Both the position numbers and the translations under genes were made by a program. The notes under the pieces are model-generated. The model searched no databases. It was not told the DNA's origin and saw only the letters and a list, made by a program, of their open reading frames with translations. Source: Bolinopsis microptera (taxonomy: Eukaryota > Ctenophora > Tentaculata > Lobata > Bolinopsidae). From it: DNA of 64,000 nt. Position 1 is the stretch's first letter. Each line of letters starts with the position of its first letter. The stretch covers positions 4,898,001 to 4,962,000 of the forward strand of contig NC_087074.1 of the NCBI RefSeq assembly GCF_026151205.1, given 5' to 3'. This document shows, in pieces, positions 1 through 64,000 of the stretch.

Positions 1-1080
1 CCCAATGACCTGCTTCTTCGTAATATATTTTTGTGTCGCTGATGATTGTCACAATGTTTTCCTAGTGAGCTAAAATTTGATATTGCATTATACATTTTAG
101 TAAATCTTGATAAAATTTGGAGAATAATTTTCATATCTATGTTTTTATCGTGTATAACGTATGGATAAAAATTCTAACCATGTTTTAATTTCCGTCGGCG
201 GTTTAACCTTATGGAGTAAATTTAATGTAATTAATATAATTCAATTGGCAATTCATGCTACTCTTTGAACGATCAAAAGTAAATTTATCGTCTAGTTAAT
301 GAATTTAACTATAGTTATGGTTTAATAAATTGAAGACTGGTAATTAATGATTATGTTTAACTCAAATAAGTCACTCGACAGGTTTTGTCTTCATTTATTC
401 TTGCTTGTTGATGATCAGCAATTAAGATTTGTTAAAATTAGAAACTTAAGTCATGTAGACGAATTCGAGAACTTATCAGCTCTAGGCACAAGTCCGTGAA
501 ATTGGATTTTACATTGATCAATAAATTAGAAAGATATGCAGAGAAGCTAATTAGTATTTCACTGTTTAAAAGTCCCATGAGTACTACATACTTACAGATT
601 GGTATATATTACAGTGTAGATCAGCGCACTTTTAGAAAAACGTGACAGTAAAGCACATGTAAGGATTAAGATATTTCAGCACTAAACATGTGCCCAGAAC
701 ACTGCCTATAATGAAGACTGGAGACCCAAATAAGCCGGATTTTACCATCCAAATAACTTAACTTTAAAAAATAAAACTCTGAGTTCACTGTCACAGTTTT
801 AGTTGTGCTGAACGCTTCTCGACTTCAATAATAACAGTTTTCTGGGCAGTCTGCACTGATCAGACGAGCCTAACCGTGACTAGTGCAACACGATACGGAA
901 CAGTTATAATAACCTGCAAAACTAGCGTCCCTTACTCGATAATCTACTAATCTACATAGTTCATACCCCAGCTAACGCGCTACATAGCCCAGTTAACGCG
1001 TTTAAATACTCTTCTCCTTCTCAAAAACCTCCAGTGAAAGCATTTCTTATTGACAAACATCAAACATGAGACTCTAATTA
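1..1080. other. AT-rich non-coding flank, nothing recognised
   Basis: No convincing open frame, RNA gene or tandem repeat was seen. The sequence is AT-rich and leads into a foldback element starting near 1081. Confidence 0.5.
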
Positions 1081-1750
1081 GTCAGTGTAATAAGCGCCAA
1101 GCGCGAGCACAGAACTTTTTTTCTCCGATTTCGATAAATTTGGTACCAAAAGTTGTCTAAAAATGTGAATAAAATAAATCCACCGTGTAGCAATTTTCGG
1201 AAGAAATGCTACACGGCGCTTGTTCGCCGCGCGTGCTTTTTTCGCGCAAATTTTTAGTTTTTGGCCTATAACTTTCACATTTTAAATTATTATCACCATA
1301 GTTATTATGGTATCGTAATCAGCTCATCGAGACGAAACTTTTAGTACTAATATTTTAAGATTTAAAGGAATTTTTTTTCCAAAAGTTTTTAATCTGAACA
1401 CAAGGGTCCCCCCTTGTGTAAAATTTTGAACAAATTTTCGAAAAATTTGGTGCTTTAAATATTATAATTTTGGTACCAAAAGTTGCGTCTGATTAAGCTC
1501 ATTACGATTCTGTAAGAATTATTTCAAAATATTCAATATTTTAGGAGTTATAGGCATTTTAAGCAATAAATTAACCATTTTTCGTCCACAGTACACTTTT
1601 ACAATGCACAGGAGGCCCACATACATCTCAACGAATCGTGCTACACGGTGAATTTTCATTATTCACAGTTAAAGGCAACTTTTGGTACCAAATTTATCAA
1701 AATCAGAGACAAAAAATTCTGTGCCAACTCATGGCGCTTATTACATAGAC
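1081..1750. mobile_element. Foldback/MITE-like element with inverted arms of about 120 bp
   Basis: The left arm (about 1081-1200) and the reverse complement of the right arm (about 1631-1750) share long runs, including TGTAATAAGCGCCA at the outer end, AATTTGGTACCAAAAGTTG inside, and CACCGTGTAGCA at the inner end. The arms enclose about 430 bp with no coding capacity. This is the form of a non-autonomous DNA transposon. No target duplication was identified, so the superfamily is unknown. Related sequence lies near 34980-35115 in intron 1 of gene A. Confidence 0.7.
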
Positions 1751-2181
1751 TAAATTCGGGTTTAGAATATTGAAATGTCAAAATTTCTGAGTGTATTACG
1801 TAAGAATAGCGTAATTGCTCAACGAACAGCATGAATGTCCACCACGTAGAGTTTACCTCGCGAGCGGGCTGCGTGATGCATAATACCTCTGACTCTCTGA
1901 AGATGAGTTACAGTTGGGATCCCACGCTCACTGGGTCCTCTTGTCTCCAGTCCTAATCATCTTGTCAACCTTTCGACGACGAATTAGCAAACCATGAAGT
2001 ATTACACTGCTCAGCCCGGGCCAGGCCCTGTGAAGCAAACCGACATATTTTATACTACTAAATTACAGGGATGTTTTAAGTGCTTCCCTTCTAATTTGCA
2101 ACTTTGCGCAGATTGAGCTCCCCAACGTCACGTGCCATTCCTCCCTCCAATCCCTGAGCTCTGGCCGCCATGTTGCGTTGT
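1751..2181. other. Non-coding upstream region of the myosin gene
   Basis: No gene is visible. The end of this stretch becomes GC-richer just before a TATA-box-like sequence at 2182, as expected in promoter-proximal DNA. Confidence 0.4.
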
Positions 2182-2279
2182 TATAAAAATCAGTCACTCC
2201 GGAGATTTATTAGTTGTCATTGCGCGCCTCATCCGCGAATACGTTAACACTTAACTATATTTAAGTTGTCTGACAGGGC
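2182..2279 (+). promoter_or_regulatory. Putative TATA promoter and non-coding 5' exon for the distal myosin start
   Basis: TATAAAAA lies at 2182-2189. About 30 bp downstream is an initiator-like TCATT (2218). At 2280 a good 5' splice site, GTGAGT, follows. The distal coding exon at 3675 is preceded by a clear 3' splice site (TTTATTCAG ending at 3669) only 5 bp before its ATG, so it needs an upstream non-coding exon. A spliced leader exon of roughly 2212-2279 would supply one. This is inference from signals only; CAGE or RNA-seq would settle it. Confidence 0.4.
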
Positions 2280-3669
2280 GTGAGTGGGAAAGTGTCCTCT
2301 CACCACAGCTTGTAAAATTGTGGCTCCAGCTGTCACACTGCTCTGTTCGATGTGATAAACTGCTCGGTGGGATGTGACATATCACTCCAAATAAGTGCTC
2401 TCTAATGGTTTAATTTCGATATCGCTTTTCAATTTCAATTGAAGCTACTTGCGATATCTGTATCAGACTACTCGAGATATTTAGACTGCATTTTTTAATT
2501 AGAGCAGAAAATAAGAAGCACTGTAAATCTATAAATTATTACCCTACAAGTTGATCCTGACATTTAGGCTTCCCTAGGACCTCTAATCATTTTTGTTTTA
2601 ACTTAATTTTAGAAATGTAAGTTTACTTTTCAATATGTTACCTCTATCTTTATTAAACTGCGCATAATACTGCATGGTATAAAGTATGTCCTGTTTTTGT
2701 TGTTGTTGTTTAATCTTACAGTGATCGAATAGCCGACATAGTATTACATTTTTCCAACAAAAAACGAAGTTACGGTAGTCAGACAGTTTGGGTCAATTTT
2801 GGTGAGATTATTAAGATTTTCAGACCCAATACTTTAAAATAAGCGCGGTTCTCATCTACTCCATCCTCATTTATGAGATCGCTTCTCCAACTTTTAATAT
2901 TTGTGGGAATGTTCACAGCTCAATAAGAAACTGTTGTTTAAAACACAGCGTGGGAAACACATTGAGCATTTTTATCATACCGCCCTGATCCTGCGGGTAA
3001 ATAACCAGCCCTCTTTTATAATGGTTTATCCTTCTAGTCCCAAATCAGTGAATAAGCTATTTTGGCGTCTCATGTCCATGTTTATATTGTAACCAGCAAA
3101 GTGCTAAATAGTGACAAGTTATTTGCTTACTTATTTAAATCAATTAAAACATGATTTATCGGTGGATGATTAAGCATCTCAACATGGTTTTCATTAAATT
3201 TTTAGCCGTTGATGATAGGGAACTGTTTTTGATCCGCGGCGAACGGAGATATGATTAGAGGTGACAGGAGTTTTCTTTAACACGCGACATATAATTTGGT
3301 GGATTCGTGTAGTGTTATAGAGATTCATGATTTGATAGTTCTTTCATTCAAATTTCTGATTGTTTCTGAATAGACTCAGTGAAGACAGATTCTAATGGAA
3401 ATAAATAGCTGAATAACGTATCGACATTTTTACGTAATACTCATATTTTCAAATTATTTGTGATATTATAGTGTTTTTAAAAACTCTTTTTAAATATGAA
3501 AGAACGTGACAAATAGTTACCAATCGAAAAAACGTGACAAATAGTTACCAATTATGCTGAGGCAAGGACCAAACGAATACGCAATTTATTTTTGGTAACA
3601 TTATTTCATCAAAAATGAATTGGCTCATTGATACGTATTTTACATTTTAATAACCAAACATTTATTCAG
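2280..3669 (+). other. Putative 5'UTR intron, no gene seen
   Basis: AT-rich DNA between the putative leader exon and the distal coding exon. A direct duplication of about 20 bp (core ACGTGACAAATAGTTACCA) occurs near 3503 and 3531. Nothing else was recognised. Confidence 0.35.
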
Positions 3670-3674
3670 GAACC

Positions 3675-3720
3675 ATGGCGGAAGAACCCGAACCCGAAAT
3701 CGACTATTCAGCATGGAAGG
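3675..3720 (+). CDS. Mhc: Alternative first coding exon 1a of myosin (distal)
   Basis: Encodes [15 protein letters not shown] and ends in one base of a split codon before GTATGT. Joined to exon 2 it continues as [10 protein letters not shown] and gives a 1,948-aa isoform. It is the longest and most acidic of the four starts. Unlike the others it sits just behind a 3' splice site (AG at 3668-3669), so it is probably the second exon of a transcript starting near 2.2 kb. It lacks the promoter block shared by exons 1b-1d. Confidence 0.75.
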
Positions 3721-6700
3721 GTATGTACACGTTGTTGCTGAATAAATATTAACAATTATGTTTATCATGCTGATCATACCTTTCATGTCATAAATTGAAT
3801 GATCAGCATGATGAATTAAAATAATCATTGGTTAACATTTAAGTGTCATGTTTATTCTTTTTAATCAAATTTTAACTCTCCAAAAAATAAACATTTATAA
3901 TCTTTTTCGACTTTAGCATCAGCGTGAGCATAATTTTTTATAAGCATATTTGACTTACAAAAATCCATATTTGATCATATTTCATGTATCGGCCTGAAAA
4001 ATTAATATTTATAGACAACCACAACCACAAGAAATTAATTTTAACCAGTAGTAACCAGTAGTAACCAATAGTAACCAATAGTAACCAATAGTAACCAGTA
4101 GTAACCAGTAGTAACCAGTAGTAACCAGTAGTAACCAGTAGTAACTGATTTTTTTTGTAAAACTTGGTTTCGAGATAGCAGTTGTCCGACAAACTAGGAC
4201 CGGTGACCGAACTTTTGAGGGGGTCCTGGACCCCAACCGCCAAACGGTGCCCGCGGGACAGCCACGCCTATATTTGGTCCAAATTAGGCCCAATTTAACC
4301 AAATACCCTGAACATGCCCAGAAACCATATTTTAGGTGCTCTACTTGTAGCTAGTGGTCCCCTGAAGTCGTAATGAATTTTCATCAAGATTGGACAAAAA
4401 ATGACTGAGTTATGAGCCAAAAAGCATATGACCATATTTAAGCATACGCACCAAATTTAATCAATTTTGGCCCATAAATTGGCCAAATATCAATATTTTT
4501 TAATGAAACCAACTTTATATGAAAGGTAAGTCTATACTACACATTATCTATGATTATCAGCTCAGTATCTACCTAACTGTGGATTCTGTGTTCAAATAAT
4601 CGCAAAAAATGAACAAAATCGCCCATATCTCAGTTCGCAATATTTGCGAAACTGATTTCGCTCAAAACAATAGAACTCAATAGGGTTTCAAATATGGTCA
4701 TATGGTTTTTGGCTCATAACTCAGTCATTTTTTGTCCAATCTTGATGAAAATTCATATACGAGTTCAGGGGACCACTAGCTACAAGTAAAGCACCTAAAA
4801 TCTGGTTTCTGGGCATGTTCAGGGTATTTGGCTAAATTGGGCCTAATTTGGACCAAATATGGGCGTGGCTCGTTTTTTCATATTACTTTACTAATTATTC
4901 CCCAATAAGATGTCAGTTTCAACTTGATTCTACAGACCTGAATACATATAATTCATAAACTAGACAAATTAATCAATTAAGTTGTTAATTAATATAATTG
5001 CTTAGAAAAAATAGCGTCCAAAACGCTAACTAACTACACAAATATTTACTTTAGATAATTCAAAGGCCGAATATTTATTAATTACACGGATTGAGACGTT
5101 GGATAACCGGTATTTAGTTCCACAGTGTCCTTAATTATTCTGCGTAAGCAAAATATTTGGACAAGGAATTTTACATGGATAGTTTAAAGCTAGCCTAGTA
5201 GTTTACATTCTTCTCTCACAATAAAACAATCTTTAAAAGAACAATGATGAAATAATACAGTTTTTTAATTCGAAAAACTACCTAAATAAGAATGTTGGAT
5301 TGCAGACGTCCGCAGGATCTGAAAAGCCACTGCTGTACTGATATCTTCCTCCAACCCAAAGTAAAACTAAAACTATGTTGAAACATTATTAAAATCGTTT
5401 CCATCCTGTGGTTCAGAGGAGAGACGTACTTCTTTCTGTACTGCAGGATGGAAAAAAGAACTCATAAAACAAACTTTAAGAGAGCAAACTTCAATAAAAC
5501 AAACTTCAATTTTACAAACTTCAGTACAGCAACAAACTTTCAATTTTACAAACTTTCAATTTCACAGCAATCAATACGTCATACAGGCCCTATATTTTCC
5601 ATTTTATGCTTGGACCAGATATACCTATTGAAGAAGAATGAGCACCAGACAGTAAGCATGTGACTAGATAGAGATTTCAAAAGATAACTAAACGGTTTGC
5701 TAAGTTTCTGAGGATCACATAATGACATTACCAGCTTGTAAGAAAGGAACAAAGCTGATTGTTGATCGGTTTTTGAGGATAATGTTTTTATATGACATTT
5801 ATATTTATATGTTCGTACAGTCAGGAAAATTAGTGTGATTAAAAACAGCGCAGTTATTGTCACTTGAAAGCTAGTAACCATAGTGATAGGCACTTGGTTG
5901 ATCTAAGAAATTGCTATTTTTGGGAGTGAAAATTTATTTGCATGCACCGTTTACAAATGTTAGAGTAATTGCAAGTATTTTAATTACTTCAAGACAACTT
6001 TTGCTCTGCGATAAATTTAACATCGCTAGAAACTTGTCAGCAACCAGCTGAGAAATCACTACCAATCGGACTGCAAACAGCAGTCACCTGCCACATAGTT
6101 TATGGTGCTTCACTATTCCACCAGAACTACTTTACTAAACTTCAACATGGGCTGTTTCAACAAAATTATTCCGCTCCTGACCTACCTACCTACCTCTAAT
6201 AACTACCAAGCAAGTTCGTACAACTACCGATAGAGCTCTAATGACTACCAAGCTAGCTCTATTGGCTAACAAATTATCATAGACCCACTCAAAAGAGCAA
6301 AACTGTCAATTAGTCTAACGACAGAATGACAGATATAAGGAACTTGGCTACCAAGCCAGCCCATTATTTTATTTACCTTTTTGGTTGCGAGTGAACTTTT
6401 CAGCTACTGGCATCAACCAACATGTCTCAGGCAAAAAGTAAGTAAATGTGACTGATGTTACCATATCTCACTCTTTATGTTATTTCCCTATCCTCTGCCA
6501 CCCGCAACTGCAACCAGTAGCAACCAGTAGCAACCAGTAGTAACCAGTATCAACCAGTAGTAACCAGTAGCAACCAGTATCAACCAGTAGTAACCAATAG
6601 TAACCAGTAGCAACCAGTAGCAACCAGTAGCAACCAGTATCAACCAGTAGTAACCAGTATCAACCAGTAGCAACCAGTAGCAACCAGTAGCAACCAGTAT

Positions 6701-9700
6701 CAACCAGTAGTAACCAGTAGCAATCAGTATCAACCAGTAGTAACCAATAATAACCAGTAGCAACCAGTAGCAACCAGTAGCAACCAGTAGTAACCAGTAG
6801 CAACCAGTAGTAACCAGTAGCAACCAGTATCAACCAGTATTAACCAATAATAACCAGTAGCAACCAGTAGCAACCAGTATCAACCAGTAGCAACCAGTAG
6901 CAACCAGTAGTAACCAGTAGCAACCAGTAGCAACCAGTAGCAGCCAGTAGTAATCTGAAGAATCAATAAAATGAAAGGCTTCATGTCAGAAATATATCTC
7001 CACTTCGGTGATGCTGTTTTAAATGATATTACGCTAGGCGTTAGCTTGCAGATAAATTAACACTTAATAACTTGAAAGGTACAAGCAGATTATTTTCAAT
7101 TAAAATGGGGGCTAAAACCTCGTTTACTAGTTACACGCCCATCAAATTAACTAAAAGACCTAACCCTAATTATAAATTTAACAAAACCGAGCCTACTCAC
7201 CAAACAAGCCCATTATTTTATTTACCTTTTTTGTTGCGAGTTCTAATCATAAACCAAGATGTCTGCTGCGGAGGAGAAGAAAAGTAAGTAGAACTAACCA
7301 TTTCAACTCTTGGTCAGCTGTTTGTTCAAATGTACACCTATTTCTACATGTCTAAGTCTATTCCCTGGTATTATTATTACTGTTTGCAAATTGTCCTGCA
7401 TAGCGTCAGCAGGTGATTTATACAGGGTGTGCTACAGAAAATGTGATTTTTGAGAAATAATAAAAACATTTATGAAGGAACAGTTGCTAAAATATTTTCT
7501 CCACAACGTCTCAATATGTATGGAATTTGTGCATACCAAGTTTCAAGTCCCTATCCCTACTTAATTTTTCACAAATTGCTGTCATGTTATCAGCCCCTCA
7601 CCTCAGAATATGTTAAGATATGGAACTAAGATAAGTTTTGAAATCTGCCGTAAACTTAAGAAGAGTACATAAGAGTAGTAACCAATAGTAACCAGTAGTA
7701 ACCAGTAGTAACCAGTAGTAACCAGTAGTAACCAGTAGTAACCAGTAGTAACCAGTAGTAGAACTAAGATAAATTTTGAAATCTGCCGTAAACTTAGGAA
7801 CATGATATTTGCCCTATCAGTCGCTGAAATGCACCAAGGTCCGGTTTATGAGCTGAGTTAGGAAGGGTAACATTAAACTAGAGATTCAGACACTTTTCCA
7901 ACATTTTGGGTTAGTCTCATTTCCAAGCTTCAGTCTCAATATTTCACCAATAAAAAAGTCTATGGTAACTTCTGAAAATGTACCGATAGCAGCAAGCATT
8001 TTTAATGAGTTGGTCTAACGAAGTTAAAGCCATGGGCTGGACAGAAAGGAAGCGGGCTACTGGAAAACATCCTGTGTCACTGTTTTCACTGCACACTGCA
8101 CGCAACATCCTATTGGTTAATTAATATTGCTGTAATGTGCGGCTGCTGATTGGCTTCTCTGGAGTGAAGGGGCTCGGTTATTGGTTATTCCTCTTTATTG
8201 GGTTATTGTGTAGGTTATCGTGTTATGCGGAGTGGGTTTATCAAGTCAGCAGCAAAGGCTGGTAGCACAGTTCCTTGTTGTTGCGGTGGAGTGAGTTGCT
8301 GTACAAATCAGATGGAGCAACTCGCACTTTCTCTTATCTCTAGCTTTATTTTCTACTTTTTTGAACTATGTAGCACAGAATTATAATGACATTTAAATAA
8401 ATATAAATATCCTTGCTGAAAATGAGTTGCACCAAACCGATGATTATTACTAATTAAACCGATGATAATTACTAATTAATAATCTGTAAGTCATGTTAAA
8501 TTGTGAGACTCATTATAATAGATTAAAAATATTAATGTTATAGCACTTAAACATTCCCGGTCGAGGTTAAGGAATATCAAATGATGGAGTAGTTCGTTGT
8601 TTATTAGTCTCATGATTGAAATACTGATTAAATACAATTTAACCGGAATGTTAAAGTACTGATAGTTGGATAATATGCGGTTGGGAGAGACAAGGACAAA
8701 TGAAACAAGACAAATGAAACAGCAATTTTAGCCTGAAGATGGCGTTGACGCCGAAAATTGGCCTTGTCTCTCTCAACCAGATATCATCCAACTATTAGTA
8801 CTTTAACATTCCGGTTAAATTGTGAGACGCATGTCCAACTATAATGGAGTTAAAATATTATATTATTGCACTTTAACATTCCGGTCCAGTTTCAACTTTC
8901 TAGAGTTCTTAAGAAATCCCAGAATAGGCATAAAAATACCTCGTTGTTATATAACTTACCGTGAACACATGCCGCTCATATGGAACATATATTGTAACTG
9001 AACATTTAACAATTCTGCCGAAAAACATGAAGGTCGCCTTGAAGTGGGTGTTAAACGGAAAGCCAAGTGTTTGCAGCTTTCCTATTGGTCAATATATCAG
9101 TAAATCACGTGAGGTAGCAGAAAATCACGTGATCCCCATACTTGGAAGTAATTGTAAATAGGGCCGGTGATTGGGGGAGCCTGCACAGTTCAGGTTTAAA
9201 ACACGGCACTGTGTGCAGCCCGCAGGGCCGTGTCACCACCTTTCTGCAGAGAAGCCTTCCAACGGCCCACCTCAAGCCTTTGCTTCCACCACTACCAATC
9301 CTCCGATATCATCTTATTGTTCCTCCAACCTGCACTAACTCCTTTCTTTCTACCGCTAATTTACACTCCTCCAAAAAAGATCATCTGAACAAGCCATATT
9401 GGACATATTTGCCGGAAAGTGCGAATGAAACCGACTGTGTAGTGTGTCCAAATGTGTTAAAATAGGTCCTGCTGCAGCTTGGCTTAGACCGAACCAAACA
9501 ACGGGGTCTGAGCTGTCAACAGGACCCGGCCTTTCAACAGGTATTCTCAGCAAAGACCTGCTCACCAAACCAGCACATTATTATTTTTTCTACCTTTTTG
9601 GTTGCGAGTGCCCACCAGTAGACATGTCCAAGGGAAGTAAGTCAATCTAAACAATTCAACCTTATCTGACTTCTGAGTCAGATATTTGTTCAAATGTTTA

Positions 9701-12700
9701 CATCTTCTACCTGGCCAGGTCTATTCTTCGGCATGATTATCACTGTTTGCAAGCTGTCCTGCATATATAATGCGGTTGTCCGTACGTCAGCAAGTGATTT
9801 ATATGTTATCAGCTCGCCTCCTTCGACCTATGTTACCGATGAATATTGCGTGATTCATCTGACTTTCCGAGCGTTCTGCAATTATAGAAGTTTTAGTGAT
9901 GATTAGCATCTATATTATGACTCATTAATGAAATATTAAGATAAAAGAATTCAGCCTATATATAGAGCCTAGTGAGCTCTAATAACTGTCATTAGAAAAG
10001 TATGTGTTCTGAACAGCATATTGAAACCAAATCTTACAGAAGGTTTCCTGAATTATAATAAAGTTTTTAAAGGACTCAATCTGGGTACGGAACAGTCTCC
10101 TATTTAGTATAAAAACTCATCAGCATTAAAACTAGTCCCCAGTTAAATTCACCTCAAACCCCACTGCACCCACACATGTTTTATTAATCTAACAGCTCCT
10201 TTATAAATCTAACAGTTCCCCTTCAGGCAATATGGCCGCTACGTGGGAGGATTCCTGCAAGTACTTGTACGCTCCTACAAATAACAACAAGTCTAATGAC
10301 TTCGCCGGTAAGAAGATGGCCTGGCTTCCAGTGCCCGGTGATGATGGGTTCGCCAAGATCGAGATCTTGAAACAAGAAGGAGATGACTGCCAGATTAATC
10401 TGGTCGAAACCAACGAGGTGAGGATGGAAAAAAATATATACTGTCACGCTAGAGTTACAGTTTCTAAAATATTTAATATTATCACAATATTTTTGCAATG
10501 GGATAAGGACGGATATTTTAGAATATCAAAAAACAAGGTCTTGAAAGTTGAACTAGCTTTCAAAAAGTATAAAGCTGGAAAATATATTTAATATTCATTC
10601 TTGACAATTTTGTGGCGATGCAAGTGTTAGCATTGTTAAAACTCTTTTGAAATTCTTTCCGAATTGTCGATAATCTGGAAATTTTGACATTCTTCAATTT
10701 TCAATAAATAAAAGTTGGTAAGCTCATCAAAGTTTTTGTAGAAGCCTCAATCGAATCAATTATTCGAGATTTTTTACATTTCTCATATTCTAAAAATTCC
10801 CGATCGTTTAAACTTTAGAAATGGTAGAAAAATGCATTATCCCTAGATATGAGCCCTTGAGCCACTATAAACTTATAAAATGTTACTAATAAAACATTGT
10901 TTGAATTAGCCATATAATCGGGTTCAGTGCAAGAAGGTTTTTTCTTTTACAGCTTAGGATGCAAGTGGCTACTTAGTAGACGGACAATACCTCAACATCT
11001 TTAAATTAAATAAACTATTGCTGACCTTGAACGGCCAAAATATCAACCATGAGACTTATTTTATCGCTAAAAATCAATAACAGTTGAATTAGCTTTTTAG
11101 GGATTTGACCGCCTTGAGAGACACACAGAAAACCTATTATATAGTTCATAAAACCTATCTAACTTATATCACATATTAGTATATAATAATCACTCCTACT
11201 GAGTCTGATGAGTGAGCTAGGAGGTCGCCGAACATCTCATTTTAAAGCTGTATCGATTTTCTATACGCATACCAAAAACGAACTTTTATGGGTGTTTCTA
11301 ATGACCATACAGGGTCAATACTCGAAAAGAGCAGATTTGTTAACTTATACGACGGTGCACCAATTTCCTGCTCTATCCTGCAAATTGAAGGCGCAAATTT
11401 TTAAGAGCTCTTGGAGTTCGACGCCTATCGGAATAATAAGGGTACTTATTAAACATCTGTACTCGCGAAGAATCTAAAATCAGGAAATAGACTAAGTCAT
11501 GGATGTGGTACAAATTTGAATATGGGTGAAGTTTTAATAAGATATGCCTTAGAACTAAATTATGGTACACAAATTTTCACTTTCGTCGATGATATAAAAA
11601 ATGATATAAAATGAACAATGACTATGAGCTTGGCTGAATCTCAGTTAATTGCTTTCAATTCGACTACATTGCAGAATATAACTAAGAATATAATTAAATA
11701 AAGGAAAAATTTGCAAAACAAATATGTTTAAGTCCGAAAAAATGTTACTTAATCTCTTCTCAGAAACGAACAGTCAACATCAACGAATGCCAGCCAATGA
11801 ACCCCCCTAAGTTCGAGATGTGTACCGACATGTCTCTGCTCTCTTACCTTAACGAAGGAGGTCTCCTCCATAACTTGAAGACCAGATACGTCGCCAACGT
11901 TATCTACGTGAGTAAAAACAACCTCTTATTGATATTAATAATTGGCAGGATAAGGAAAGCATAAATTGATCGACTTTACAAACCATGATTTGAGTTAACT
12001 GTGACTTATTGTTGAGTATCTTGACTCCGTTTATTTTTCAGACCTACTCCGGTCTTTTCTGTGTCGCTATTAATCCCTACAAGAGATTCCCTATCTACAC
12101 AGGTACGTTCTGCTCTACAATCACAATTACCTTGTTGCTAGCAATATTCCCAGTATTCATTGCGCATCATTGAGCTGTAAGGCATTTTTAAACCTTACCT
12201 ATACAGCACTCAGTAAAGATTGTTTAATTTCACCATGAAACTATTCCAGATGTTGTGATCGCCAACTACCGTGGAAAGAAGAGGACAGAATTACCTCCTC
12301 ACGTCTTCGCTATTGCTGATAACGCTTACTCTGACATGATCCAAAACAGGGAGAACCAGTCTATCCTGATTACTGGTGAATCTGGTGCGGGAAAAACCGA
12401 GAACACGAAGAAAGTCATCCAGTACTTCGCCAGTATTGGAGCCACTGCCGGTAGTGGTGCAGATAAGAAAATGTCCGTCGAAGACCAAGTTGTCATGTGT
12501 AACCCCGTCCTTGAGGCCTACGGTAACGCCAAGACCGTCCGAAACGACAACTCTTCTCGATTCGGTAAATTCATCCGAGTTCATTTCGGTAAGGACGCCA
12601 AGTTGGCTTCTGCCGATATCGAGTACTACCTGCTGGAGAAGGCTCGTCTCACCTACCAGAACCCCGAGGAGAGGAACTTCCATATCTTCTACCAGATCTT

Positions 12701-15700
12701 CAAGGGTACCCCCAAGGAGATGCAGACCTCAGATTTCCTGCTCGACCCTGACGCAAACAACTACAAGTTCCTGAGTAACGGAGATGTACAAGTACCTTCA
12801 CAGGACGACGTTGAATTGTGGAAGGAGAACGAAGAGGCTATGGTTATCCTCAACTTCTCCGACGACGAGAAATACTCCATCCTCAAACTCATGTCCGCTT
12901 GTCTACTCTTCGGAAACATCAACCTGAAGCAGAACAAGAGAGATGAAGGTTGCGAGATCGAGAATCCAGTCTACATTGAGAAGACAGCTGCTCTTCTTCA
13001 GATCCCCGCTGCTGAATTCCAGAAGTGCCTCCTCAAACCCAGAGTAAAGGTCGGATCCGAGATGGTCACCAAGTCCCAGAACTCTGACCAGGTACTTTTT
13101 AAGCACTTTCCTTGTGTTTAAATTGCGATAAAACTAAAGTAATGATAGATTCAAAAACAAACAACTTTTCTAAACTAAGATTACAGTAGAAATACAAAGT
13201 GAATCAAGTACGTTGCGAAACAGGAGATTTGTAAATAACGATGGTTTCCCGTAGGTCTACTTCGCCACCAAGGCTCTGTGTAAGGCTATCTTCGAGCGTG
13301 TGTTCAAGTGGCTGATCGGAAAGTGTAACAAGGCTCTTGATACCAAGAAACCTAGGGCTAACTTCTGTGGTGTCTTGGATATTGCTGGATTCGAGATCTT
13401 CGACGTAAGTCTTTCCACATCATTTAATTTCCTCTTTAATGTTTTTTTAAAGTCGTAATTGACAACTAATTGTCTTCTTGTAGTGTTCAGAAGGGAGATC
13501 TTTAACTTATCTTGTGACGTTATGTCAAGGTTATGGTGGCTGACACTCTGTATTATTTCAGTTCAACACATTCGAGCAGCTGTGTATTAACTTGACCAAC
13601 GAGAGACTGCAACAGTTCTTCAACCACCACATGTTCATCCTAGAACAGGAAGAATACAAGAAGGAAGGAATTGTCTGGGCGTTCATTGACTTCGGTCTTG
13701 ATCTGGAACGTTCCATTGAACTTATGGAGAAGCCAATGGGAATCTTGCCTATGTTGGACGAGGAATGCATGTTCCCCAAGGCTACTGATACTACCTACAA
13801 GGATAAGGTCATCCAGCAGCATAACAAGAAGCACCCCAAGTTCTCTACACCATCCATGAAGTCCATCAAGGGAATGGATAACCCACCCCATTTCAACATT
13901 CACCATTACGCTGGTGGGTTTTTTACAATACAAATTTTGTTGACAATAAAAATTTACTGAATCATTGTTTTATGATTCAACCATATCTCCATCAAACAAA
14001 TACCGTTTTTGTAAAACTAGGTGTATTTAGATGTTGAAGTATCTAGTTATGGTTTATAGAGCTGATACTGTATTTATATAGGTGTTGTCGGATACAATGT
14101 TGGTGATTGGTTGACCAAGAACTCCGATCCTCTCAACGACAATTGTCTGGATCTGTTCAGAAAATCTGCTATGCCCTTCATGGCTGAGCTGTTCGCTGAT
14201 TGTGTCCCCGCTGGACCCAAGGAAAGGAAGAAGACTTTCCAGACCATGGCTATGATGCACAGGAAGTCCCTGAACTCTCTCATGGGAATGTTGCACGCAA
14301 CCTACCCTCATTTCATCCGTTGTCTGGTACCTAACGAGACCAAGACCCCCGGAAAGGTCCAGGCTGAACTTATCCTTCATCAGCTCAGGTTTGTTCTAAA
14401 TCAATCAGCTTCATTATCTTCATAAGTCATAACTTTTAATTCTTGCTCTCAAAAGATGCATATTCATTGAACGGTCATGAGGTGCTCCCAATAAGACTTA
14501 ACATGTACAAATAACATTGGCAAATAAATGTAATTTCTAACTCTCAAAATGTCCAGGTGTAATGGTGTACTTGAAGGTATCCGTATTGTGCGAGCTGGAT
14601 TCCCCAACAGGATTGCCTACGCCGACTTCGTACAGCGATACAAGATCCTGGCCGCTTCAGCCATCCCTGCTGGCTTCATCGAGGCCAAAGAAGCTTCTCA
14701 GCTTATCATCACTCATCTTGAGCTTACTGATGACCAAGCTAAATTCGGAAACACCAAGGTCTTCTTCCGTTGTGGAATCTTGGGAACACTTGAGGATTTG
14801 CGTGACGAGAAGATTACCCAGATCCTCTCTGCCTTCCAGGCTCTCACTCGTGGATGGATTGCCCGCAAGATCTACATGAAGCTTATGGAACAGAGGTAAA
14901 ACTATTACCTGTTGCCTAACCTACTGGACATCTTTGAAGTATTCGGTTTTGATCAGGGTAGAAAAGCCCAAATACGAATGGCAATTATTCTCCACATAAA
15001 AATATTCGGGAAATAAATCATAGTTTTTTTCAGGGTTGGAGTTGTTGTCCTGCAGAGAAACATCCGTCAGCACTTCGTCCTGAGGAACTGGCCGTGGTGG
15101 AAGCTTTTCACCAAGGTCAAACCTCTCCTGTCCATCGCCCGTCAGGAGGACGAGATCAGAGAAAAGGAGGAAGAGATGAAGAAAGCCATGGAAGAAGCCG
15201 CTGCAACGGCCGTTGCCAAGAAGGAGCTCGAAGAGAAATACGAGAAACTTGAGGAAGAGAGGATGAAGATCCAAGCTGAGCTGGAGAGGGAGAGACAGGC
15301 AGCTATTGATGCTGAGGAACTTGTCTTCAAACTTGAAGGTAAACAGCAGGAGCTCGAGGAGGAGAACAATGAGTTGATCGACAGAATTGAAGAGGAAGAG
15401 GAGAACAACTTCATCGTCGCTGAGAACAAAAGGGGAGTTGAAGCTGAACTCATCGGAGTCCAGGAAGAACTTGCCGCTCTTGGCGAAAGGCTCAAGAACG
15501 TGAGTATTAGTTTTTTTATGTTGTTCGACAAAAATTATTTCGTTTGTTAACAAAACAACACAAAAAAGATTTTTACATCTTTGGCTCGTGCAAATCTTTT
15601 ATTGGGGTTTCCATTTATTTTTTGTTCCATTGCTGAGGCGTTCGTTTATGACAAATTCAGGCAAAATGTTTATCCTAATGTTCCATTCATTTACAATGTA

Positions 15701-18700
15701 TCACTTCAGGCCGGTGGTGATATCCAAGGAAAAGAAGCAGAACTCAAGGAAAAAAATAACGAGTTGACCAGAAAGGACGAGGAGATCAAGAAACTGGATA
15801 CCAAATTGAATGATACCGCAAAGAGACTGGGAGAGACCGAATCCATGCTGGCCGCTGCTCAAGAAAAGGGACAGCGTCTTGACAAGGAGAAGAAGAGGGT
15901 TGAGAGTGAGCTTGGTGAGACCAAAGTGGATCTTGACAAGGAAAAGAGAGCCAAGGCAGATCTGGACAAGAACCTGAGAAAGAAGGACGCTGAATGCAAG
16001 GAAGTCCTCGGACAACTTGATGACATGACTAGACAGAAGACCGAGTCTGAGGACACCGTCAGAAGGAAGGAAAGTGAAATTTCCGGCCTACAGGCAGCTG
16101 TTGAAGCTGAACAGAACAACGTTACTAAATGCCAGAGACAGATTAAAGATCTCGGACAGAAGAACAAGGACATTGAGGATGAGCTCGATAACGAGCGAAA
16201 CCAGAAGCAGAGACTTGAAAAGGCAAGAAACGAGCTTGAAGCCCAGATCGCCGCCTACGAGGATCAGATTGAGGAGGCCGGTGGAGCTAACAGCGCTGCC
16301 GTAAGTTATTTCACTTTTAATCAAACATGTCATCATAGTTTATTGAATTTTAAACAGAACGTCCAGTTTGATGCAAATATGCACATGTATAATTAGCGAG
16401 GATGGCACCTTGACTCCCAAGACTCCGAGAGTAAGGAGTGTAACAAACATTGAGGAATGTTACTGCAAAGGAAACCTTTTTTAAGTAACTCTTGATTCGC
16501 TGAGTCAGTACTTGATAAATGTTATCGTGTCTAGTGTTACCGGTCTCTGATTTTTCTTTTTTCTCTCATACATCCTGACATTCCGCAGCTGACATGGTCA
16601 GCAACAAACAATTGGTGAATTGAATAATATAATTCGTTATTCGATCTTCCTTTTTTTGCTTATTTCGCACAAACCCGATGATTTTTAAAACCAGTAAAAA
16701 CTTGTGCATGTTTAGTCTGACGTAATCCTATGGTGCCAAATTTTTGTAAATTTAGAATCATTTGCTAAATTAGTTTTCCCTCTTCATGTGCAACACAAGG
16801 GAATATTTTGTCCGCACTTTAACTCATCTCTTTCTCTTTGCAGACTGAGTTGTGCCGACGTCGTGAGGAGGAGATCGCCAAGCTCCGAAAGGATAAGGAA
16901 GGAGCTGAACTCGAAGCTCAAGAACAGGCCGATGCTTCTAAGAGGAAGTTCAACGATGTCCAGAACCAACTTGAGGATGCTGAGGATATGCTCAGGAAAT
17001 ACAAAGCCAAGTGAGAAATATATGAATAAAATTATTACGTCATTTCGTATAAGAATATATTTTGTACGAACACTTAGTTTCAATAATATAATGTTTGGTT
17101 CATTTGCGTCTTTCAAAATAATTTCTAAGATCTCCAAAGAATTATCATTTCATTTTAGTAACCCCTTAATTCAACTCAGGGCTGAAAAAGAAAAGAAGGC
17201 CTTCATGTCCGAAATGAATGACCTCAACGAGCAGGTCGACAACTTGGCCAAGGCCAAGGCCACCTCCGACAAGAACGCCGGTGGCCTTGACGCTTCTCTC
17301 GCAGAGGCCAACGCCCGTATTGCTGCACTCGAGGCCTCTCTTAGAGAGCTGACCGACAAGTACAACAAGCTGGTCAAGGACAACAACGCCACAGTCGGCA
17401 GACTGGAAGAGGCTGAGGCCAGAGAGGCCAACCTCGCCAAGCAGAAGAAGGTTCTCAGTGCCCAGATTGATGACCTGAAGAACCAGCTTGAGGACGAGAG
17501 CGCCCAGAAGAACCAGCTCATCAACCAGCTGCGTGCCGCCACTGCTGACCTTTCGGCCGCCAGAGACGACCTTGAGATTATCAACGCCGAGAAGAACGAT
17601 CTTGGCAGGAACCTAACTAACGCTCAGAACGAGATTCAGTCTTGGAAGAGCCGACTCGAGGCCGAAGCTCTGCCCAAGATCGATGGTAAGGACCATATTC
17701 TATATTGCCATATTCTGTTATATCAATATTATGCTAGTTTTATCTTCAGTTACTGTAGACTGTGTTATAAAAAAACTAATTTAAGGCGTAATTTTGCCTG
17801 TATTTTCCACTTTTTGCATCTATGGTTATATCGATGTAATTAGTACAGATGATAAACAGCAATATTTACAGAGCTTGAGGCTGAGAAGAGGAAACTCCTT
17901 GCCCGAATCCAGGAGGCTGAAGACCGAGCTGATGAGGCTATGTCAAAGTAAGTTAATTAAGTGAACAATTTCATACTTGTCCTACTTGAGAGTCCAGCTC
18001 GAAGTCACCAAATGTGCGGTATTTAAAAAGTGTGCAGTTTACATAGTGTCAAAAACCTTTTACAATACGTGAGAAATCCTGAATTTTTCACCTACATTTC
18101 CGTTCCATGCCAGACATGGCAAAGCAATAGCCCACCAGATTCTGAGATATAATATACACTAAAAATGCGAGCTGTGAGCTGGCTAACAACCGATGACAGT
18201 CATTGTCAACAACTGCCGACCTCCGTACACCCCATGTTTCCACTGCTCCCACCATTCCGAGAATATTTTTACCTTATATGGTCATGTCTCCTGTCCTGCA
18301 ATGTGTTGACGTTCAGGACCTTAAAGAGAAGCTTGTCCGGCGCCCGACTTAGAAAACTCGGGAAATACCATACAAAGTTTTAGTGACTGGTGGTTGGACT
18401 CAGAAAATAGAGACAGATTACTGTATTGAGTAAAAAAACAGCTATATCGGCTTCAGCTAGAAAAGACATAGAAGTTAGAACTGAATAGGGAACATCATAT
18501 TAATAGCATATGGAAATCATTCGGAAACTATTTGATCAAGGAGAAGTGTGTGAGCTCTGAGAGGATGATATTATGTTCACATAGTGCTACATACTGGTTA
18601 CATACTGGTTACATACTGGTTACATACTGGTTACTGACTGGTAACTGACTGGTAACTGACTGGTTACATACTGGCTACATACTGGTTACTGACTGGTAAC

Positions 18701-21700
18701 TGACTGGCTACATACTGGTTACTGACTGGTAACTGACTGGTAACATACTGGCTACATACTGGTTACTGACTGGTAACTGACTGGTTACATACTGGCTACA
18801 TACTGGTTACTGACTGGTAACTGACTGGTAACATACTGGTTAGATACTGGTAACATACTGGTTAGATACTGGTTACATACTGGCTACATACTGGTTACTG
18901 ACTGGTAACTGACTGGTTACATACTGGTTACATACTGGTTACACACATGCTGGTGTTATATCTTTATAAACTGACAATAACAAAGTTCTAACCAAACCCC
19001 GTACCCAGGTGCAACAACCTGGACAAGATGAGGACTCGTCTTATGCACGAACTCGAAGATTCTGGTGTTGAGCTAGAGAGGACTAGGTCTGAACTGGCCG
19101 CCCTTGACAAGAAGTGCAAGAAGATCGACATGATCGTCTTGGAATGGAAGAGCAAGTACGACTCTGCCAGCAGCCATGTCGAGTCTCTCACCATTGAACT
19201 CCAGAAATCCAACGTAAGTTTAACTATATCTTACTCCATATGGTTTCTAACATGCTCAGCTCTATAGATCACCGGAACATTTGTAGAATGTTTTCGGCTT
19301 ATATTTTAACACACGACATTGGGAAGAGAAATATATTTTTCTAAGCAAACTTACTTTTCAGACTAACGTCCTGAACATGAAATCCACATGTGAGGAGTAC
19401 ACCGTTACCATCGAGAACCATAGCCGATCTCTCAAGAAATACGAGGCTGACATCAGAGACTTGAACGCCGAGCTTGAGGGAGGACGCAACAGCCACGAGC
19501 TGGAGAAGATCCGCCGCAAACTCGAGGGAGAGAACGATGAGCTGAGACAGCACATTGACGAGCTCGAGATCCTTGTCTCCTCAAGCGAGAGCAAGTGCAC
19601 CAAGCTCACTCTGGAGATCGCCACCATCCGTAACTCATACGAGAGACAGCTGGCTGACGCTGATGAAGAGGGAGAGAAGGCCCGTAAGGGACTCCTCCGA
19701 CAGGTCGAACAGCTCAAGATGCAGCTCGAAGACCAAGAGAAGGCTAAGGCTGATATCCTCAAGGTGAAGAAGAACCTCGAGATTGAAGTTGGAAACCTCA
19801 ACGAGGACCTCGGAAACGCCGACAAGACCATTGCCGCTCTGAACGCCAACATTGGAAAGCACCAGAAGACCGTCCAGGAGATGACCATGGCTCTTGATGA
19901 GGCTCACCGTGCTCTCGATGACCACAAGACCGCCCTTGTCCGCTCAGACAAGCGATGCAGTGAACTGACTCACATTAAGGAGGAGCTCGAGGGCAACCTT
20001 GATGGAGCTGATCGTGCACGCCGAAACGCTGAGGGTGAGAAGTCCGAGATGGCAGCACACATTGCTGATCTTGAACGACAGATTGCCACTATCTCCAACC
20101 AGAAGAGGAAGGCTGAGGTTGATCTTGCTGGACTCCGAGAGTCTCTCGAAGAGTTCGAGTCTCAAGCTATGTCTGCTGAGGAGAAGGTGAAGAGACACGC
20201 TGATATGGTTTCTAAACTTCAGTCTGACCTTACCCGTGAGGCTGATGCTCGTGCTGGATTTGAACGTGTAAACGCCAAACTCAACAGTGACATCTTCAGC
20301 CTGAACGCAAGGATCGAGGAAGTAGAATCATCTGCTCGCTCTGCCGCCAAGAACAAGATCAGCCAGCTGGAGATCAAGATCAGACAGCTGGAGAACGACT
20401 GCTCTTCTGAGGCCAAGGCCCGAGGTGATGCTCAACATGCTCTGAAGAACCTTGACCGAGTTATCCGTGAGAAGGAATTCAACTCTGATGAGGACATGAA
20501 GACCATCCAGAGACTCCAGGGACAGATCGAGTTCCAGAACAACAAGATGAAGGCTCTCCGACGAACCATCGATGATGGCGTAAGTAAACTTTTCTAGTCT
20601 TTCTGCTTTTCCATCCCATCTGTAATTCAATATTATTCGGTACTTTACTGATATTTTCATAGGGCAAATTCTTCATCAAGGTTCCCGGTTATATATTGTT
20701 AATAGTATTAAAAAAACTAGCCCCACTAATCGAATACTCTTTACAGGAAGCTCAGATTGCTGTTATGCAGAACAAACTTCGCAAGGCTATCCATGACGTA
20801 GAAGAGGCTGAGGAGAGGTCCGCAATGTTGGAGACCCAGCTCGTCAGGGGTGGAAGATCTGGAGGTAGCTCCAGCACCCGCATCACTACTCGCCGTGTGG
20901 TAAGTTGATACGCTCACTGCTTTCACTTTCACTTTCACTTACAATTCAAATTTTAGTCTCATTTCTCCCCTTTCACGAAGTTTTTGTTTTTTGTAGCGCG
21001 CGACTACTTATATGAGCTATTATAGTATGCTACTGAAACTGCACTCCGATAATACTTCGTAGTTTTCAAGCTGCTGCAAGTAAAGCCTTCTAAAATACTC
21101 CTTTATAAATACTGCTATTTTGTGCAACGAATTTTTGCATAATACAGCTTCCCGGATTTCAACACCTCCCACAGCTTGCTGACAAGCGCTTTGACACTTG
21201 CAGGGCTTCCGAACCAGCTTACACCTCACGTAAACTTTCCGTCAGAGTCACGTGTCTTTTCACTGTAATCACGTGACTTTTCACTGTAATCACGTGACTT
21301 TTCACCGTGGTAGAATCGTTTTTTATAGGATAATGTCAGGTGGTGTTGCTTGCTGAGGAAGCAGGTCCGGAACAAACTGCTAATTACATCAGCCGTACAG
21401 TGGCCCTTTTTAATTACATGAGCCTATATATTAGTGTGCTTATTATGTTTCGGCAGGAAGACTTGCAAAATGTATAAAAATGAATCGCTGAGAGAATATT
21501 TCTCTATGCTGTTGTTATACGCATAATTGGAAATTTGGTTCAACTCTATCTCCAGTTCAACAATATACTTTATATACTCGGTAACCTTACAACTAGTACC
21601 CATCAAACGTCACACCACGTGATATGACGTCACAGCTAAATTAGTATAATTTCGACACCACTCTAAGTAACATCTTTTCCAGTTCTCATCCTCCATTGGA

Positions 21701-23942: not shown

Positions 23943-26900
23943 TTAATTGTCCTTATTTTTCTTGTTTCCTTTCTTTTTCTTCTCTTTTTTTGTTACGGTC
24001 AAGTTGATAGGTTCAGAAATGAACGTTTTGCCATTAACCGTGACCTTGGCCCTGTAAGAATAGTAGTAGATAGAAGTCTCCAGTTCTAATCCGGTGATAA
24101 TTCTAACAAGGGTGCAGTTCAATCTATTCCAGTATTTCAATTGAAGCTAACTTAGTAACTTATTTGATAGAACTTGAAAACTTACACGTATGATCCACTG
24201 TTTTTAGGTTTCCTTTTCTTGCCAAACTCTTTGGTATAGATGCCATCCTTAACTTTACTTTTCTTGCACTTCGTCGCTTTCTGATTCTTGTAGAGACAAA
24301 CCGCTACTTTGACAGTCTGAAATAAATAAGTGCATTAAGATTCAGGTATAGTTAAGATGTAACTTTAGAGACAGATAAACTTATATTCTGTCTAACTCTA
24401 CCAGGATGTACTCAGAGGAGTTGTGTTAACAATTCTAATATTTTATTAAATGATAAACTTTGTACAAATCTTATATTTGACTATGCCAACATCCTATTTA
24501 ATGATGTATAGAAATCTTTATTATATTATTTATGTCACAGTAGTTGCAAAAATAATTATTGAAATAAAATTGTGATACAGGAATGAGCTGAAAGTACAGG
24601 GTGTCCCAAAAAGGCAACCAAGTTACTTCTGTTACTAACTCGCAGCTCAGATTTAACGACTTAAAACTTTTCAAGTCATGCAGTAGGATGCTCCAGAATC
24701 AGTGTTAACAATTTTAGGACAAAACTTTATCAGGAACCTTCTTATTTAGCAATAAACTTGTCTGCCATCAGATAGGGGGGGGGGGGGCGGGGGTGGGGGT
24801 TCATCCTGTAGTTAATTATATCACCATACCCCGATTGTAGAGACGACATCCCACCCTAGAACGCAAGCCGTCTTCTTGTCTCCCTGTTTACATGTAAGGT
24901 CTTCCGCTTGAGACGTGATGGTAACTTCGTTCTCAAGTACTCTTACTTGAATGTCCGCTGAATCCTCCGTACCCTGTCCTTTGGCGTGACATGTACACGT
25001 TCCTTTGTCAGACAGTTTAGCTGGCTTCAGTACCAGTTCGCTGAAAGCCTCTGAAATCAAAAAGTCAGCAATAAAACAAAATTTAATAAAACAAAATTGT
25101 ATTTTTTTTCTTTTATTATTTGTATTTGGTTTCATCCACTTATACCACAGTGATGGAATTTTAATAAGTTTCACATTTCTTTTAATGCAACCACAAAGTT
25201 AGCTACTGAGATTCAGAGCTACCTTTTGTTTAAAATGCTTACTTTTGTTTATGATCATCACGTTGCCTTTACCATTTTTCATTTTCTGTCCGTTACAAGT
25301 CCAGAACAACTCCGTCACTGTCTCCAGTTTATTACACTGTAGACATTACTGATTAACTTTCACAAAATACTTCGATTAAACCTTAAAAAGTTATAAACGT
25401 GAAAACGAAAAGTAATGCAATTTATTATTATGGCAATGATATCAAATGTTTACACAGAGAAGGAAATGGAAATATAACTGAGCATAACCGTGACCGACTA
25501 GTGACCGATAATCAAGTCCTCCTGCTTTGGATATGCTGGTAATGAATATACAGATTTTCTTGCCAAAAATGTTCCAAAACCTAGGACTCCGCCCAAGTGC
25601 TGCTACCAATTCCAGAGGTATGGAAAGGGGCATTGCGGAGAATAAGTCATCGGAAAATGAGGCAACGAAGAAAAACGATATTAAACATTTACTTCAAACG
25701 AGTATGGAGAGACAAATTCGCTAGAACTTGGTAAAGAGACCACAAGAACAACAAAACAGTTTCTTGCCGGACGTTGTGAACTAAACTACTATCTTAACAA
25801 ATTTAAGCCGGCAACAATCCCCAAAATGTGTCCTCATTGCCTCATGGAACAGGGCACAATGAATTACTTTAATAGTAAGTGCCCAAAGTGATCTTTACAA
25901 CGAAGAGGATACTTTGGCTCATTTTACTGCAGTGTGACAGAAATAGTGGACTTATACTCACTCCAAAGGATTATCGACAAAAACGCGACAAAACACCAAA
26001 ATATGCGGAAAAACCTATAAATTAAACCTTTACATTCAATTATTTTAAAATATTTTACCGGCGCGGGGTAAACACAAGGCTTTAATTGTATTGGTCACCT
26101 CGGCCACAGCTCCTCAACAAAGAAGAATATATCAAATTCATAAGGTAATCCAATAATAATCTTTACCTGAAGCTTTATCACATCACCCTCGACAAAATCT
26201 ACGATTTCTTTTTCTGCCTTAACCAGGTCTTTTTCTTCGAGTGGCAGAGCAACCTCGAATACTCCTTCAGATGTTTTCCCATCCTTCTCCACGACACACT
26301 TGAACTTTCCTTCTTTCTTAGCATCCATTTTCTTGATAGTCAAGGTCAAACCGTCGTCAGAAATGGAATACGCCTTTTGTGCTTTGGAGAGATCCGCCAT
26401 ACCTGGGGCAAACTTGAACCACTTAACATTATCCTTGGTCACTTCCACGCCGTTCACCCTACACGTCAGAGCTAAGGGTTCTTTGACGACAGCATCAGGC
26501 TTAGGATTAACTGCCTCCACCCAGTTAGCAAGACATATGGGACAACATTCTCCTTCTTTTTCAACCTCGATCTCATCATCACCACATGTAACTTTACATT
26601 TCTTGTCTTCACACTCTTCCTGTCCCTTACCCACACAGCTGCAATCCAGACATTCTGCTCCCTTCTCGTACTTGTCTCCAACATCGTAGAGCTGGCCAGC
26701 ATATTCGCACTTGCAGTCATCTAGGCCAACACATTTTCCTTCCTCCATCATCTGACCCTCGGGACAGAAACATCCAGACTGAGACTTTTTACCACCGTTA
26801 GGTTTTTGGCAGGACGGTGCTGGTTTAGGTCCCCTTTGTTTGAATACTGAACCTTCTGGACAATTAGGAGCACACATGCTTTCAGGGAAGTTGATTTGCC

Positions 26901-55620: not shown

Positions 55621-56210
55621 ATCATACATTATATTATAATGAATGTACCAAATAGTAAATTTATACAGATCACCGTCAAGAAATACTAATAATTTCATTA
55701 GCTTACTCGATCACGTACTCAATAGACTAGATAGACAATCACAAAAACACGTTATGTTTTATGGCGAAGCAATTATTGATCTTATTAAATATGACACTGA
55801 TTCCTCAAGCCAGAACCTCATTGACACACTGGCAAATATGGTTTTGTTCAAACAGTTTCAAAACCAACACGAGTCACTGACCACAGTGCCACCCTTATTG
55901 ACCATGTGTACACAAATAATATTGAAAACAAGTTGTAACGTGCTAACACTCGACATCTCCGATCATCTTGTAACACTGACCACTATAAAGCTACGTGCAG
56001 TACCACACACTCAAATAGGACCGATACCACAAAATACCGTGAAACACGTACTATTAATGAAGCCAGCAATGCTATGTTCAAGGAATCATGGGAGGAGGCG
56101 CGGGAATCAGGCTGTGCAAATGAACAGGATGATAAGTTCTCAGAAATCTACATGAAACAATACAGCACTGGCCACTGCATACCCATTAGTTGTAGTGAAC
56201 GGTCGATTTT
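55621..56210 (+). mobile_element. LINE, 5' part: APE-type endonuclease region
   Basis: Broken frames read YRSPSRNTNNFISLLDHVLN, HVMFYGEA, DLIKYDTDSSSQNLIDTLAN and NVLTLDISDHL, the layout of an apurinic-type endonuclease of a non-LTR retrotransposon. Some catalytic motifs are spoilt by frameshifts. The element breaks off near 56200 and seems to resume at about 58480. Confidence 0.75.
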
Positions 56211-63600: not shown

Positions 63601-64000
63601 TTTTTCTTTGAGCGGTAGAGTCACCTCGAATACTCCTTCAGATGTTTTCCCATCCTTCTCCACAACACACTTGAACTTTCCCTCTCTCCTGGCGTCCATT
63701 TTCTTGACAGTCAAGGTCAGACCATCGTCGGAAATGGAATACGCCCTCCTCGCATTGGAAAGATCGTTCATACCTGGGTCGAACTTGAACCACTTAACAT
63801 TGTCCTTGGTCACTTCCACACCGTTCAGTTTCACCCTACAACCCAGAGCTAAGGGTTCATCGACGACAGCATCAGGCTTAGGATTAACTGCCTCCACCCA
63901 GTCAGCAAGACATGTGGGACAACATTCTCCATCTTTCTCAACCTCGATCTCATCATCATCACATACGCGGACATGACAGTTCTTGTCTTCACACTCTTCC
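60608..64000 (-). CDS. Gene C: third paralogue, 3' end only
   Basis: Exons in coding order: beyond 64000 to 63538, 63393-63300, 63095-62878, 61618-61479, 60692-60608 (stop at 60608). They match exons 18-22 of A and B in phase and nearly in length. The first visible exon encodes the end of a VWC-like domain (CCPTCLADW) and an Ig domain ([19 protein letters not shown]). The next ones encode further Ig-like domains. The tail is short (TLTVTPKGKKVE) and lacks the long Lys-rich extension of A and B. The 5' part lies outside the window. Confidence 0.88.
61667..62639. mobile_element. Mariner-like non-autonomous element in an intron of gene C
   Basis: 34-bp inverted ends (61667-61700 and 62606-62639) start CAGGGTGGGCCA and are flanked by TA on both sides, as expected for Tc1/mariner target duplications. 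No transposase frame is present. Sequence near the right end is shared with 54165-54385. Confidence 0.8.
61761..61937. mobile_element. Small TIR element nested inside the mariner-like element
   Basis: Perfect 16-bp inverted ends ATAGTTGGTTCGTGCG (61763-61778) and CGCACGAACCAACTAT (61921-61936), flanked by CTTACTA direct repeats. Element ends CA...TG and a duplication of 7-8 bp fit the hAT superfamily. The interior is made of GTACGTTAAGTGCG-like motifs. Confidence 0.75.

Follow-up and report, generated by a model that had tools for sequence, protein, structure and literature searches.

We analyzed a 64,000-nucleotide stretch of the Bolinopsis microptera genome (assembly GCF_026151205.1, contig NC_087074.1, positions 4,898,001 to 4,962,000 of the forward strand; hereafter the window), which contains a ctenophore myosin heavy chain gene preceded by four short ATG-bearing exons, A to D. 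By its bit scores, the gene encodes a muscle-type myosin heavy chain of class II. Compared with solved myosins, its motor part reaches 957.7 bits against scallop striated myosin versus 820 to 840 bits for the smooth and non-muscle entries (60 matches listed), and the top Protein Data Bank (PDB) matches among those listed are molluscan muscle myosins. The motor and N-terminal part together are nearest to striated class II myosins, which bears out the assignment to a muscle myosin made in a preliminary description of this DNA. Our hand-built gene model runs as a single open frame, with GT-AG at the junctions, from the common exon 2 to the last exon ending at 22399. It has ≈1100 residues after the motor and predicts chains of 1948, 1938, 1941, and 1937 amino acids for the A, B, C, and D forms, respectively.

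The gene model contains a single loop-1 exon. A muscle-type paralogue at C3:9.15 Mb instead carries two loop-1 exons in tandem (C3:9154012-9154485), the second of which is ten residues longer, and a loop-1 exon pair with one member nine residues longer is described for Mnemiopsis Mhc2 in PMC3912159. Because the pair sits in the paralogue and the window gene has only one such exon, we take the window gene to be probably Mhc1, as judged from exon layout against the published description. Mhc1 would then be the orthologue of Pleurobrachia PpiMHCIIb1, with which it is equated in PMC3912159 and which PMC3502136 describes as the exclusively muscular form.

A script reproduced exactly what had been described for the four ATG exons, including their split codons, donors, and joined peptides. 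Each of the four exons stops after the first base of a codon, which exon 2 completes in frame; exon D, for example, then reads MSKGS followed by NMAATWEDS. Exons B, C, and D share a common order of elements, namely a 43-base block, then ATGTC, then AAGTAAGT. Local similarity scores between them are 71 for B and C, 59.5 for B and D, and 120.5 for C and D; in 200 shuffles for each pair, the scores never exceeded 31, 27, and 28, respectively. In the same test, exon A scores 18 to 20 against B, C, and D, equal to the null means, and a common origin of all four exons was therefore rejected. On these comparisons, B, C, and D have the appearance of alternative first exons that arose by duplication. 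The earlier proposal of four alternative first exons thus appears sound for these three, C having no notable acceptor and those of B and D being weak or ambiguous, and appears not to extend to A, which is unrelated to B to D and lies behind the best-scoring acceptor of the region.

The block itself is restricted to this locus. Using a 20-base core pattern taken from the D copy, we scanned the 264.65-Mb genome and found the B, C, and D copies alone at two or fewer mismatches. The scan gave 13 matches in total, the remaining ten of which have three mismatches and stand at control level, since the reversed control gave 11. This restriction at two or fewer mismatches led us to reject a genome-wide core-promoter motif. 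An assembly artefact was likewise rejected, because the copies are 7 to 28% diverged without gaps and lie 0.85 and 2.4 kb apart. The presence of the block in front of Mhc2 was also rejected, the best match in 30 kb of the plus strand agreeing at only 25 of 43 positions; no other start-exon scan was made there.

Table 1. Start exons, block copies, candidate upstream elements, and exons of the myosin heavy chain gene model (window coordinates).
Feature	Position	Strand	Description
Candidate TATA box TATAAAAA	2182-2189	+	putative upstream promoter for A; CCAAT at 2147 in front
Candidate untranslated exon 0	2212-2279	+	donor 2279; no ATG; 5′ end guessed from TATA position
Exon A, whole	3670-3720	+	acceptor AG 3668-3669, 5 bases before ATG; start context ACCATGG
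Exon A, coding part	3675-3720 (46 nucleotides)	+	15 residues and split codon; phase 1; donor 6.0
Block at B	6350-6392	+	ends 29 bases before ATG; 93% identical to C copy
Exon B, coding part	6422-6437 (16 nucleotides)	+	MSQAK and split codon; phase 1; donor 9.2
Block at C	7199-7241	+	ends 17 bases before ATG
Exon C, coding part	7259-7283 (25 nucleotides)	+	MSAAEEKK and split codon; phase 1; donor 9.2
Block at D	9567-9609	+	ends 14 bases before ATG; 72% ungapped identity to B copy
Exon D, coding part	9624-9636 (13 nucleotides)	+	MSKG and split codon; phase 1; donor 10.4
Common exon 2	10227-10417	+	begins GC AAT ATG GCC; own in-frame ATG 10232
Exons 3-6	11764-11907, 12042-12102, 12250-13091, 13255-13404	+	hand-built model
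Exons 7-10	13562-13913, 14082-14388, 14557-14895, 15034-15499	+	hand-built model
Exons 11-14	15710-16300, 16844-17010, 17180-17685, 17872-17947	+	hand-built model
Exons 15-18	19009-19213, 19362-20579, 20747-20899, 22367-22399	+	hand-built model

Exon A is set apart by its acceptor, which at 10.2 scores highest of the 623 AG sites in bases 1-10226 and is the sole one to reach 10. First exons need no acceptor, and because the best acceptor of the region precedes its ATG, A is most simply read as a second exon. It is probably not a first exon and would follow either an untranslated exon or a trans-spliced leader. As a candidate for the former, we propose that exon 0 (≈2212-2279) is joined to A. 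Its donor at 2279 (9.7) is the best listed in bases 1-3675 and lies 97 bases after TATAAAAA, one of three TATA[AT]A[AT] words in that interval (603, 2182, and 2530). The surrounding bases 2101-2250 have a GC content of 0.51 and 11 CpG, and other 150-base windows are comparable (GC 0.52 at 4201 and 0.56 at 9151; 11 CpG at 1201). A trans-spliced leader joined at 3669 would serve exon A equally well.

Taken further, the leader explanation holds that spliced-leader trans-splicing sets most 5′ ends of the gene, at exon A (3669) and exon 2 (10226), and that B to D are minor or inactive. We regard this important alternative as unlikely, although the genome does contain what it calls for. A cluster of spliced-leader RNA gene copies lies at C13:12.80-12.89 Mb (12796450-12894850). 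In the five copies that we read, which vary among themselves, the leader ends in AATTTGAG; a GT donor comes next (three copies have GTAAG, the other two GTTAAG and GTAAAG), and then hairpin-like stretches. These copies resemble the leader reported for Hormiphora in PMC8527503, in which leaders are given for 56% of Iso-Seq reads as a lower bound. At the myosin gene, good acceptors stand upstream of the start codons of both exon A and exon 2 (the latter 9.2, leave-one-out), and in the Mhc2 paralogue, the acceptor-like cttctcccag is followed eight bases later by a possible start ATG. Because leader genes exist and exon 2 combines a good acceptor with an in-frame ATG, a fifth N-terminus, MAATWEDS, starting at the exon-2 ATG at 10232, is possible. 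What trans-splicing leaves unexplained is that B to D all retain an ATG, the frame, a strong donor, and a common block. It is also opposed by C, which has no acceptor of at least 5 within 268 nucleotides. Six other matches to the leader pattern (on C2, C4, C6, and C1) belong to a near-identical dispersed repeat with TATTTAATTTGAGGT, whose flanks are unlike those of the leader genes.

The acceptors near B, C, and D bear on whether these exons could be internal. In leave-one-out scoring, the 17 acceptors of the gene itself span −0.6 to 12.0 with a median of 8.5, and a low-scoring site may therefore still be used. Within 400 nucleotides, no acceptor of at least 5 is found for B with the corrected matrix; the sole one for C scores 5.0 and lies 269 nucleotides upstream, and the sole one for D, at 9541, scores 6.3 and lies 83 nucleotides upstream. 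Exclusive internal exons carry an acceptor and a donor on each, an arrangement from which C departs, though not in absolute terms. We find it highly improbable that D, or B, serves A transcripts as a cassette or second exon instead of being a first exon. The acceptor at 9541 would define for D an exon of 96 nucleotides (9541-9636) that is open between A and exon 2, but the insert would be very hydrophobic (HYYFFYLFG), which makes D an unlikely cassette. For B, the putative acceptor CTTTTCAG at 6404 scored 7.2 with an earlier matrix; it scores 4.89 with the corrected one, and the resulting exon of 34 nucleotides would break the frame of A (46 + 34 nucleotides).

We therefore weigh most heavily an arrangement in which an upstream promoter serves A and a duplicated promoter/start unit, present three times as B to D and mainly regulatory in effect, supplies alternative starts, all joining exon 2; we consider this reasonably probable. 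From the gene, its junctions, the duplication, the locus-specific block, and the splice-site scores, we infer promoter activity, exon skipping, tissue use, and an effect on the motor as follows. An upstream promoter, the best candidate for which is near 2182, would drive transcripts whose untranslated leader is spliced to coding exon A. Within the 6.5-kb intron between A and exon 2, a promoter-plus-first-exon unit would have been duplicated twice to give B, C, and D, each with the conserved 43-base block near its ATG, and these units would act as clustered intronic promoters. Lacking a strong acceptor, B to D would be left out of A transcripts, and every transcript type would then be spliced to exon 2. 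Such an array would probably serve mainly to place a single motor gene under the control of different muscle cell types or stages.

Several observations count against this arrangement, and some of them favor another explanation, in which one or two of the exons are used and the other duplicates are relics whose splice signals are due to chance or recent origin. To count comparable structures, we defined a candidate as a short ATG frame (at most 25 codons) in bases 1-10226 that ends at a phase-1 donor at least as strong as that of A (6.0), and we took 100 first-order Markov resamplings as the null. Six candidates were found, two of them, starting at 1775 and 4519, in addition to A to D, versus 2.96 ± 1.79 expected and a maximum of 7. 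By itself, the count is not significantly above chance and proves nothing; the threshold, moreover, was set by the weakest donor among the six. Two intron pieces of C and D are 77% and 80% identical, about as alike as the blocks of these exons, so the likeness of C and D may be mere duplication, and constraint is argued mainly by the B copy. The N-terminal peptides diverge more than the block, which argues against selection on the peptides. Exon 0 depends on weak consensus signals, and the dependence of the CTTTTCAG score on the matrix makes the first-exon status of B ambiguous. Finally, the genome-wide count of the leader pattern is 452 versus 409 in the reversed control; because this is hardly above control, the presence of leaders is argued from the clustering on C13 and the shared flanks.

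Against the relic explanation, the block is nearly identical between B and C, yet the repeat listing holds no other B-C repeat of at least 20 bases outside the decamer arrays described below. The exon lengths of 16, 25, and 13 nucleotides also differ by multiples of three, for which the chance is 1/9, a weak argument because the exons were originally picked for their frame. On balance, we consider it quite unlikely that the duplicates are relics. Donor strength counts in favor of B to D as start exons: among the 580 GT sites in bases 1-10226, six have donor scores of at least 9, and B, C, and D account for three of these (the others are 2279, 4525, and 9108). For the duplicated start units, the better preservation of the block than of the peptides suggests that any selection acts on the time or place of transcription.

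A more specific version of the favored arrangement, which we put forward tentatively and with somewhat less than even confidence, is that a start unit made up of a core promoter block, a short start exon, and a donor was duplicated in the first intron, so that one ctenophore Mhc1 is deployed from four promoters in different muscle types, each promoter conferring its own N-terminus. Because Mhc2 has its possible start ATG close behind an acceptor-like site and no copy of the block in the 30 kb scanned, translation may originally have begun in the common exon, with the start units gained later by Mhc1. Acquisition of these units by Mhc1 but not by its paralogue Mhc2 could have contributed to Mhc1 becoming the muscular copy once a ctenophore-specific duplication had occurred.

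The isoforms would also differ in the tips that precede the shared sequence. When isoform A is locally aligned to solved myosins, its residue 23, the E of TWEDS, pairs with fly residue 11 (8u95) or 10 (8exw), and residue 24 pairs with tarantula residue 6. Ahead of the aligned E stand 22 residues in A, 12 in B, 15 in C, 11 in D, five in the form starting in exon 2, and ten in the fly entry; the tips of B, C, and D are roughly fly-like in length, and that of A is about twelve residues longer. The A tip comprises 16 residues and is acidic, with a net charge of −4, and the B to D tips comprise five to nine residues and are neutral or basic; endowing the chain with one or the other would be a secondary effect of the choice of start. 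The tips would be expected to be disordered. All four isoforms start with Met-Ala or Met-Ser, the usual setting for methionine loss and N-acetylation.

Several repeats lie within or near the start region. In the intron between A and B, an inverted repeat (4260-4870) with arms of 113 and 67 bases, 96% and 99% complementary, looks like a small transposable element and holds three CArG-like words (4279, 4842, and 4853). Decamer arrays of the AACCAGTAGT type follow A, B, and C (4042-4145, 6510-6950, and 7674-7760, respectively). A special role for them was rejected, as the same decamer occurs on several other chromosomes. An 11-mer array resembling them lies in the tail region of the gene (18588-18943).

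Beyond the myosin gene, a repeated secreted-type gene adjoins it on the minus strand of window positions 24000-64000 (for example, frames 26095-27399, 29143-29634, 42268-43371, and 63448-63999). The frames at 26095 and 42268 match C8 and I-set above the Pfam cut-off and VWC below it, the frame at 29143 matches VWC above the cut-off, and the frame at 63448 matches Ig-type families below the cut-off only. The similar frame pairs 28284/45091 and 29143/45950 suggest at least two copies of the gene and part of a third. A hexamer array at 47930-48697, with 127 copies of AAGGTA, is open in several frames on both strands. The open frames 55643-56155 and 60100-60519, which we take to resemble pieces of a long interspersed nuclear element (LINE)-type retroelement, had no match in Pfam.

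If the array of start units operates as proposed, it would represent a route to motor diversity distinct both from the exclusive exons that arthropods use and from the vertebrate gene families, and it would provide naturally occurring muscle motors that differ at their N-terminal ends. A muscle copy split by several promoters would make ctenophore muscle types trackable by their 5′ exons, and regulatory duplication as the origin of a muscular role would become directly testable.

The preliminary description knew of no well-described case of diversity from four promoters with N-terminal exons. For muscle myosin II, a literature search of limited depth that covered few subscription papers turned up no heavy chain gene described as having alternative coding start exons. 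N-terminal variants are on record for the class I myosin-1C. Alternative N-termini would thus be a new variant in muscle myosin II of something known in class I. The proposed arrangement resembles vertebrate MYO1C in that one myosin gene would yield differing N-terminal extensions, and differs from it in that MYO1C encodes a class I, single-headed, non-muscle myosin. We know of no tandem-duplicated exon family in MYO1C, and the isoforms of mouse MYO7A differ by start exon. Among the isoforms myosin-1C0, -1C16, and -1C35, the N-terminal extensions are reported to alter power output and ADP release, with maximum power 18-fold apart (PMC7948490), which indicates that a myosin can be affected by its N-terminal tip. 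PMC3623870 states an alternative transcription start for the 16-residue form. MYO7A is likewise one myosin gene with several isoforms, but of class VII and in hair cells, and the loss of one isoform is described as affecting inner and outer hair cells differently (PMC7190839).

Among muscle genes, arthropod Mhc genes are described as having a non-coding exon 1 before coding exon 2 (PMC2257972), which is like the proposed joining of exon 0 to A; the account given there does not mention alternative coding first exons. A term search in the available text of PMC12221973 did not find "alternative promoter." For ctenophores, section 7 of PMC3912159 describes exclusive exons for Mhc2; alternative start exons are not mentioned there for Mhc1. 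According to the same source, muscle myosin II is diversified by exclusive internal exons, by sets of genes, and by tail-only products from internal starts. Metazoan muscle Mhc genes, including Mnemiopsis Mhc2, also have alternative exons, but internal and mutually exclusive ones (PMC3912159). Catchin and the Drosophila myosin rod protein are comparable to the proposed arrangement in using, within an Mhc gene, an alternative start or N-terminal exon (PMC3912159), but these proteins start in the tail region and form rods that lack a motor.

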